From Planctomycetia bacterium (GTDB taxonomy: Bacteria > Planctomycetota > Planctomycetia > Pirellulales > S012-138), in assembly GCA_016177915.1 (NCBI GenBank), contig JACOUI010000384.1, positions 1 through 43,866 on the forward strand: 43,866 bases of DNA, given 5' to 3'. Within the stretch, counting starts at the first letter, position 1, and each line of letters starts with the position of its first letter. The position numbers were made by a program, and so were the translations under genes. The notes below the pieces were generated by a model. The model did not search any database and was not told the DNA's origin. It saw only the letters and a program-made list of their open reading frames with translations. Below, piece after piece: positions 7,288 through 32,002 of the stretch.

Positions 7288-7397
7288 GTTTGTAGTGACC
7301 GCATTCATGCGGTCGGAGGCGCGCGGCGGCGTCACTGGGCGCGGCCGCGCAGATCAGGCACTTCGGGCCGGACCCGATGAATCGGGTCACTACAAAC
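7288..7397. repeat. REPIN-like pair: GTTTGTAGTGACCGCATTCATGCGGTC ... GACCCGATGAATCGGGTCACTACAAAC
   Basis: Two 27-nt inverted units (7288-7314; 7371-7397) with compensatory stem changes. Confidence 0.85.
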
Positions 7398-12138: not shown

Positions 12139-12163
12139 CCTCACGCGGAAGCGTGAGGGCTAC
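12139..12163. repeat. REP-like hairpin CCTCACGC-GGAA-GCGTGAGG with GTAG on minus strand
   Basis: Perfect 8-bp stem; CTAC at 12160-12163. Confidence 0.75.
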
Positions 12164-30228: not shown

Positions 30229-30410
30229 GCCACGCCCTGAGGTACTCCGAAGGGCGGCGGCAAGTCGGTCTCGAGGACGATTATGACGGAGAGGAGGGTT
30301 TTGCGGGAGTAGCGGCATGCTGAACCGGGGTGGCACGCCCTGAGGTACTCCGAAGGGCGTGGTGCGCGAGGCCCGTAATGCACGCCCCTCGGAGTACCTC
30401 AGGGCGTGCC
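30229..30410. repeat. Three copies of ACGCCCTGAGGTACTCCGAAGGGCG-type REP (two direct, one inverted)
   Basis: 30229-30256, 30332-30359, 30383-30410 (inverted). Confidence 0.9.
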
Positions 30411-30468: not shown

Positions 30469-30849
30469 ATGCCCCTTGCCGCCGTCCAGATCGAGCATTT
30501 CGTCCTCGTGGCAGGAATGATCCTGCTGTGCGCGATCCTCATTTACCGATCGCGCAAGCGGCTGGCGGCGTCCGCGGCCGCTCGGCCGCAGTCTCCCGTC
30601 GCTGCGCCTCCGGTCCCGAACCTGCTTGCGCTCAGGCGGCGATTGGACTCGCCGGAGATCGACCGCTACGAGGTCGAAATCCAGGACATGGTGCGCGACG
30701 TGCGCGCCGAAATCGACAGCAAGATGATCGCGCTAGCGCAGTTGATCCGCATGGCGGCCGAGGAAAGCGCGCGGCTCGAGGAGTTGTTGCAGCGGGCCGG
30801 CGAGTTGAGCGAAGTAGCCGTCTCGCTCCGCGAGACGAAGCCGGGGTAG
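30469..30849 (+). CDS. Small single-TM hypothetical protein; C-terminus encoded by a REP-like repeat
   Basis: MPLAAVQIEHFVLVAGMILLCAILIYRSRKRLAASAAARP...EIQDMVRDVRAEIDSKMIALAQLIRMAAEESARLEELLQRAGELSEVAVSLRETKPG. Confidence 0.75.
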   Translation: MPLAAVQIEHFVLVAGMILLCAILIYRSRKRLAASAAARPQSPVAAPPVPNLLALRRRLDSPEIDRYEVEIQDMVRDVRAEIDSKMIALAQLIRMAAEESARLEELLQRAGELSEVAVSLRETKPG

Positions 30850-30872
30850 CCGTCTCGCTTCGCGAGACGAAG
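30814..30872. repeat. Tandem GTAGCCGTCTCGCT(C/T)CGCGAGACGAAG (x2, 32-bp period) spanning a stop codon
   Basis: 30814-30840 inside CDS; 30846-30872 contains stop TAG 30847-30849. Confidence 0.92.
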
Positions 30873-30966
30873 GGCGCGGCTTTCACGGCCTCCATGCCCG
30901 ACGCGCACCCGCGTCACGCGCCATGGCAATTCTTTGCTCGCCGAAGCGCTGCCTCATGCGGAGTGT

Positions 30967-30998
30967 GAGGGCTCCTCTCGTGGGAGCGTGATGGCTAG
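30967..30998. repeat. REP-like element (minus strand CTAGCCATCACGCTCCCACGAGAGGAGCCCTCAC)
   Basis: Shares CCATCACGCTCC with the 11953 element; minus-strand stop TAG at 30995-30997. Confidence 0.6.
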
Positions 30999-32002
30999 GC
31001 CTCGCCTTCTTCCTTCGCCTTCGGCGCGGGCAGGCCGTGCTCCCGCAGGTATTCCGCGGTCGCGTCGGCGGCGCGGCGGCCGGGCTTGTAGTCGAACACG
31101 CGGGGATCGATCGGCCGGTTGAGCCGCACCTCGAACAACTCCAGCATCGCCAGCGGCCGATCCGGCGGAGCATCGTCCCGACGGTGCTCGATGCGATACG
31201 GGAAAAGGTCCGTCTTTCCCAAGTAGATGAGCACGTGGTCGGGGACGTGCCGCGGGGCCTTGCTCCAGTCGGGCGATTTTCCGCCACGGATGCGGTCGCG
31301 CTGGTCCGGGATAAGGTCCGACAGCGTCGAGGGATTCCAGCGGCCCTTGGCGACCCAGACGTCCACGTCGCCAAGCTGCTCAGAAAACACTTCTTTGAAC
31401 GTCATGTGCCGCGCCAGCGAATCGAGCAGCTCGGGGAGGCCGCCGATGGGCGGCGAGAGCGGCGCCGCCGGGTCCGCACTTGCGCCGGCAAGCCGCTGTC
31501 GATAGGCGGACAGCACGGTGTTGATATCGACGCTCGTGAGGCGGGGGCCGTCCAGGTTTTTGCGATACGTCCAGAGTGCCGCGCCGTCGCAGACCTGCTG
31601 CCAGTTCGCGGGACCTTCGGCCGTCTGCAGCTTCAGCTCGAAGCGGCTCAGGGAGACCCCCTCTGGGCCGGCCATCTGCGTGTAACTGCCGGTGCCGTTG
31701 AGCTGCTGACCGTAGAGATTCGCCACCTGGCGGGCCTTGGCAGCAATGCTGTGCTGGCTTTTCAGCTTGTCGATGGCGCGGGCCAGAAGCTCCGCTCCGC
31801 CGTCGTTTTCCGGCCGCATGGCCGCGTAGGCCGGCGATTCGCCAAGGATACCGGCGGCCGAGGAAGCCGTCTGGCGAGTGGCCGCCGACGGGCGCGATTC
31901 GCTTGTTTCCAGCGCGACGTCGCCTTGCCGCCAGTGGGCCACGAGGATCGCCACAGCGATCCCAAGTGCAATCCCCGGAAGAGTTGGCGACTTGTAGCTC
32001 AT
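30995..32002 (-). CDS. Exported/anchored protein, LolA-like by motif impression
   Basis: N-terminal TM/signal MSYKSPTLPGIALGIAVAILVAHW; 'FELKLQTAEGPANWQQVCDGAALWTYRKNLDGPRLTSVDINTVL'. Confidence 0.7.
   Translation of the reverse strand: MSYKSPTLPGIALGIAVAILVAHWRQGDVALETSESRPSAATRQTASSAAGILGESPAYAAMRPENDGGAELLARAIDKLKSQHSIAAKARQVANLYGQQLNGTGSYTQMAGPEGVSLSRFELKLQTAEGPANWQQVCDGAALWTYRKNLDGPRLTSVDINTVLSAYRQRLAGASADPAAPLSPPIGGLPELLDSLARHMTFKEVFSEQLGDVDVWVAKGRWNPSTLSDLIPDQRDRIRGGKSPDWSKAPRHVPDHVLIYLGKTDLFPYRIEHRRDDAPPDRPLAMLELFEVRLNRPIDPRVFDYKPGRRAADATAEYLREHGLPAPKAKEEGEA

Follow-up and report, generated by a model that had tools for sequence, protein, structure and literature searches.

A GTAG-headed repetitive extragenic palindrome as predicted protein tail and as stop codon in a planctomycete genome

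Repetitive extragenic palindromes (REPs) of the GTAG type, which consist of a short-looped hairpin with a 5-13-bp stem and an unpaired GTAG flanking it on one side, have been reported in Planctomycetes together with an association to RAYT genes (Di Nocera et al. 2013, PMC3733652). Both stop codons supplied by GTAG REPs and intragenic REPs are already published (PMC3733652), and the same is true for a C-terminus coded by a GTAG-REP-containing element: in Coxiella burnetii strain Dugway, QMITE2 codes for the last 33 residues of EnhC (PMC5896051). The case described here is a further example of these known effects. It was found in a window of 43,866 nucleotides, i.e. the whole stretch of DNA analysed, from a Planctomycetia bacterium of the Pirellulales (GCA_016177915.1, contig JACOUI010000384.1). 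The features needed in the following are:

30469-30849, forward strand: gene of a 126-aa protein; an open frame that ends in the REP pair
30814-30840, forward strand: REP copy 1, comprising GTAG, an 8-bp hairpin and AAG; the copy has its TAG outside the reading frame and is predicted to be translated as residues 116-124, VAVSLRETK
30841-30845, forward strand: 5-bp spacer CCGGG between the tandem copies; it codes for P125 and, together with the initial G of copy 2, for G126
30846-30872, forward strand: REP copy 2; the 126-aa gene stops at its TAG (30847-30849)
30971-30998, reverse strand: decayed inverse REP (CTAGCCATCACGCTCCCACGAGAGG), aligned with intact copies; it is the outer member of the pair and supplies the convergent gene with its stop TAG
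30995-32002, reverse strand: convergent gene of 335 aa that matches neither a Pfam nor an NCBIfam family; it stops at the TAG 30995-30997 in the inverse REP
C212:13546-13776, on contig C212 of the genome: Y1_Tnp gene (candidate RAYT), above the cut-off of Pfam Y1_Tnp

The two 27-bp copies differ by a single mismatch and follow each other with a period of 32 bp; no match was obtained in 100 dinucleotide shuffles. Codon 116 begins at 30814, where GTA GCC GTC TCG CTC CGC GAG ACG AAG reads VAVSLRETK, and CCG GGG (P125 and G126) directly precedes the TAG in copy 2. The TAG of copy 1 (30815-30817) lies out of the frame of the open reading frame; since the period corresponds to 2 mod 3, the TAG of the next copy falls in frame. 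An earlier note on this DNA had described two near-identical copies at these positions and in these frames, with the first TAG read through and the second used as stop, and the open reading frame 30469-30849 bears this out. As single-stranded DNA, both copies are predicted to form a hairpin of -9.2 kcal/mol (z of -4.0 for copy 1).

The unit can be written as GTAG-C-CGTCTCGC-TCC-GCGAGACG, comprising the unpaired GTAG head, one nucleotide, an 8-bp stem and a loop of 3-4 nucleotides. The suggestion of the earlier note that the 27-bp unit is of a mobile type is supported, and the unit recurs in the genome: it was found at 76 places with at most 3 mismatches (reversed-pattern control: 0) and at 156 places with a stem-relaxed pattern (reversed control: 1). 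Across the 99 loci retrieved, 166 different copies were identified that retain the GTAG and in which no more than one of the 8 stem pairs is broken. Their main paired arm types, CCTCACGC/GCGTGAGG (52), CGTCTCGC/GCGAGACG (46), CATCACGC/GCGTGATG (37) and CGTCACGC/GCGTGACG (10), differ by matching, compensatory changes on both sides of the stem, and the stem covariation score amounted to 0.258 compared to 0.066 in shuffles (12 rows). Most REPs of this family lie outside genes, and most form head-outward pairs as REPINs: among the close pairs, 45 have the GTAG outside, 19 are direct (mostly 30-33 bp) and one has the GTAG inside. In four other genomes among 97 relatives the exact repeat type (at most 2 mismatches) is present, with at most 9 copies each.

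Thus a headed hairpin, many dispersed copies, complementary stem variants, head-out dimers and a REP-flanked candidate RAYT gene were all found, and as a REP with a GTAG head the 27-bp unit fits the published description (PMC3733652). The likeness to the GTAG REPs described there extends to the head, the short perfect hairpin, the complementary stem variants, the head-outward dimers and the RAYT association; the placement here is at the level of the superfamily, above the 24 families of that study. As in the REPINs of Pseudomonas fluorescens (PMC3116915), the apparent unit of the family is an inverted doublet of REPs and the genome contains a RAYT, here a candidate one, but stem, loop and spacing differ, and in the window two direct copies face one decayed inverse copy. 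QMITE2 resembles the present case as a GTAG-REP-containing element at the 3' ends of genes; in contrast, it is a MITE of 150-190 bp whose effect was seen by comparison of two strains, whereas the window case has no known empty allele (PMC5896051). The palindromic elements of Rickettsia are likewise palindromic repeats translated in frame within genes, but they are of the CGTC type or longer and have no dedicated transposase (as cited in PMC3733652).

The REP-flanked gene is the Y1_Tnp gene on contig C212. It is enclosed on both sides by head-out REP pairs of the window's family and itself stops at a REP-borne TAG. With the NCBIfam model REP_Tyr_transpos it scored 59.4 against a model cut-off of 80. 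The flanking REPs belong to the CATCACGC/CCTCACGC subtypes, and the exact CGTCTCGC subtype is not found at that gene. Altogether, the genome holds 12 Y1_Tnp-like genes (contigs C135, C56, C5 and others), of which this is the one located between two head-out pairs of the family. GTAG hairpins lie near only three of the 12 (L009, L012 and L016), and these hairpins largely belong to other families. Presumably, a RAYT mobilised the REP copies of the window.

In the window, the two direct copies and the decayed inverse copy form a REPIN-like cluster (30814-30998) between convergent genes. Since both genes stop in REP TAGs, the REP cluster that makes up the intergenic region terminates them both. 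Other palindromic repeats were observed as well. A second one (ACGCCCTGAGGTACTCCGAAGGGCGT), present at 8 places in the genome, lies upstream of the 126-aa gene at 30232-30257, 30335-30360 and 30382-30407. Four more head-out pairs of GTAG hairpins from several families are located at 7292/7393, 11953/12163, 27509/27627 and 40037/40091, and the reverse-strand genes ending at 12163 and 27627 have a REP TAG as stop.

The 126-aa protein comprises a hydrophobic N-terminal segment followed by a charged, coiled-coil-like body and had no match to a Pfam or NCBIfam family that passed the cut-off. The open reading frame is a real gene, since homologues occur in 40 of 97 Pirellulales relatives (E of at most 0.001, itself not counted) and a six-frame codon model gave a coding posterior of 1.0, with the codon signal positive up to the REP. 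A scan of named genomes with the single protein gave no relative; an alignment scan gave 7 homologues, all of them distant (Pirellulales/Planctomycetota). No conserved synteny was detected within 1.5 kb of the homologues, so that their orthology is judged by sequence alone. The alignments reach about residues 104-118. Several families contain short homologues, whose ends lie between 11 residues before and a few residues after the stop of the 126-aa gene, which supports the reading of the earlier note. The VAVSLRETKPG tail is present in none of the aligned homologues, and a tail conserved with other codons in distant species, which the note had named as the case against its reading, was not seen among them.

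Many homologues other than the short ones run 34-112 residues further into a DUF6115/DUF2802-like C-terminal segment that is absent from the 126-aa protein. Pirellulales homologues (L022, L023, L037, L038, L044 and others) share the C-terminal motif GEVELILxLR, which resembles DUF6115/DUF2802 below the Pfam cut-offs. The homologue read from within the own family (L044 in genome G003) is of this long form. Since most homologues have the segment, the C-terminus of the 126-aa protein appears to have changed by more than the gain of a tail. Among the relatives compared, neither a close relative free of the REP nor an allele with an empty site was found; the nearest are other genera of the same family, which lack this repeat and differ in the C-terminus where the homologue was read.

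Judged by its sequence, the VAVSLRETKPG tail is REP-derived, since homologues lack it and its DNA is the repeat unit. The GTAG head carries a ready-made TAG, by which a REP in that frame ends a protein at once; the other two frames of the unit are open and add residues. Copy 1 would have landed out of frame and be read as VAVSLRETK, and by the 32-bp period the TAG of copy 2 comes in frame and ends the protein two residues later. More generally, a tandem period of 31 or 32 bp shifts the frame with each further copy, such that the second or third copy gives the stop. For the opposite gene, it is the inverse copy whose TAG acts as stop. It is assumed that the cluster was inserted after the 126-aa gene existed and that the REP-coded tail has little effect on the protein. 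A second translated case was observed at L101, where an open reading frame similar to phosphatidylinositol-phosphate synthase reads VAVSLRETK and inverse-REP peptides in frame (cluster at L101:1301-1460), and the coding signal resumes after the cluster.

We consider it extremely improbable that selection maintains the tail as a normal portion of the protein, with the REP match being secondary. The frame is open and the codon signal extends to the REP, as would be expected for such a part, but no homologue shares the tail, and its DNA is a 24-27-bp unit with more than 150 copies, mostly outside genes, whose palindrome is kept by compensatory changes; the current data largely refute this explanation. 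A more serious alternative, which we consider possible although somewhat doubtful, is that the REP insertion truncated a longer gene, i.e. that the cluster replaced or cut off the DUF6115/DUF2802-like (helix-turn-helix-like) segment and the tail is the scar. A truncation is favoured by the presence of the extra segment in the majority of homologues, among them the one sampled within the own family. Against it, a search of all downstream frames gave no remnant of the segment (best tblastn E of 0.024 over 18 residues, 401-base target), and short homologues occur in several other families, so that the short form may predate the REPs. A gain of the tail, as proposed in the earlier note under the term exonisation, is the best reading for the 126-aa gene and probably correct. 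The repeat-coded tail and its absence from homologues support this part of the claim, whereas the insertion event behind it is deduced, most homologues carry the extra segment, and read-through of REPs is rare (3/87, see below). Altogether, we consider it very probable that the unit is a GTAG REP of a RAYT-mobilised family, with copy 1 translated as the predicted tail, the TAG of copy 2 acting as stop, and the inverse copy ending the opposite gene.

With genes called by a six-frame codon model trained on the own genome, 87 of the 166 REPs have a gene of the same strand just upstream. In 26 of these 87, the gene stops precisely at the TAG within GTAG; in 58 the REP lies downstream of the stop, at a distance of 3 to 211 bases, and in 3 it is called as read through: copy 1 of the window, L101, which is solid, and L148, which may be a miscalled open reading frame. 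A Pfam domain was found in the predicted frame of 21 of the 26 REP-stopped genes and is often complete to a few residues before the stop. Thus REPs in this genome commonly supply the stop, and the translation of a REP is a rare exception. Gene ends were also called in some 444 kb of the own genome (L208-L227 and the window) that had not been picked by REP position, which gave 356 ends. A G precedes 97 of 142 TAG stops compared to 87 of 214 other stops (p = 3e-7), the effect size being approximate because the sample was drawn from contigs known to carry REPs; in smaller samples from four relatives the difference was not significant. A hairpin of at least 7 bp directly follows 15 of 97 GTAG stops compared to 8 of 255 others. 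The enrichment of G together with these hairpins indicates that several GTAG REP families of the genome supply stops. A rise of TAG usage by REPs was unsupported, with TAG at 40% here and at 40-42% in three of four sampled relatives.

The coincidence with stops could originate from site-specific insertion of the element at TAG or GTAG, as opposed to random insertion with the other insertions weeded out; we regard this as a tentative explanation with somewhat less than even support. Compared to the 26 exact stops, the density of REPs over the offsets -3 to -30 is about 1.6 per base, and native ends are kept in ManC (offset 0 in 11 of 11 orthologues), GlgC (median offset 0) and a class-III aminotransferase (-3 to +1). 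In a tested RAYT, GTAG guides the choice of the cleavage site, but the cleavage by TnpAREP is reported at CT or CA and not at TAG (PMC8266576); this biochemistry neither proves nor excludes a preference of REPs for stop codons. Orthologues of FAA hydrolase (0 to +2), RpiB (median +3) and the nearer ZnuA (+2 to +6) are usually 0-6 residues longer than the REP-stopped genes, which fits an insertion few codons early with subsequent selection, and the enrichment of G before TAG is not expected from a pure targeting of existing GTAG. Hence target choice and selection against read-through each fit part of the data. The stricter form, in which an insertion rule puts the GTAG REPs of this lineage on native stops, so that their TAG replaces or coincides with the own stop and the protein is unchanged, seems unlikely to us.

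The site in the window displays both effects that a REP can have on a gene end, being translated, as predicted for copy 1, and stopping translation. On the scale of the genome, the counts point out that REP-supplied stops are common and tolerated and that translated REPs are rare. If target choice underlies the coincidence with stops, this is relevant to the way in which RAYTs insert REPs. Should the stricter insertion rule hold, the TAG in the GTAG head would be part of the target choice, and stop codons would be a safe harbour for the spread of REPs.
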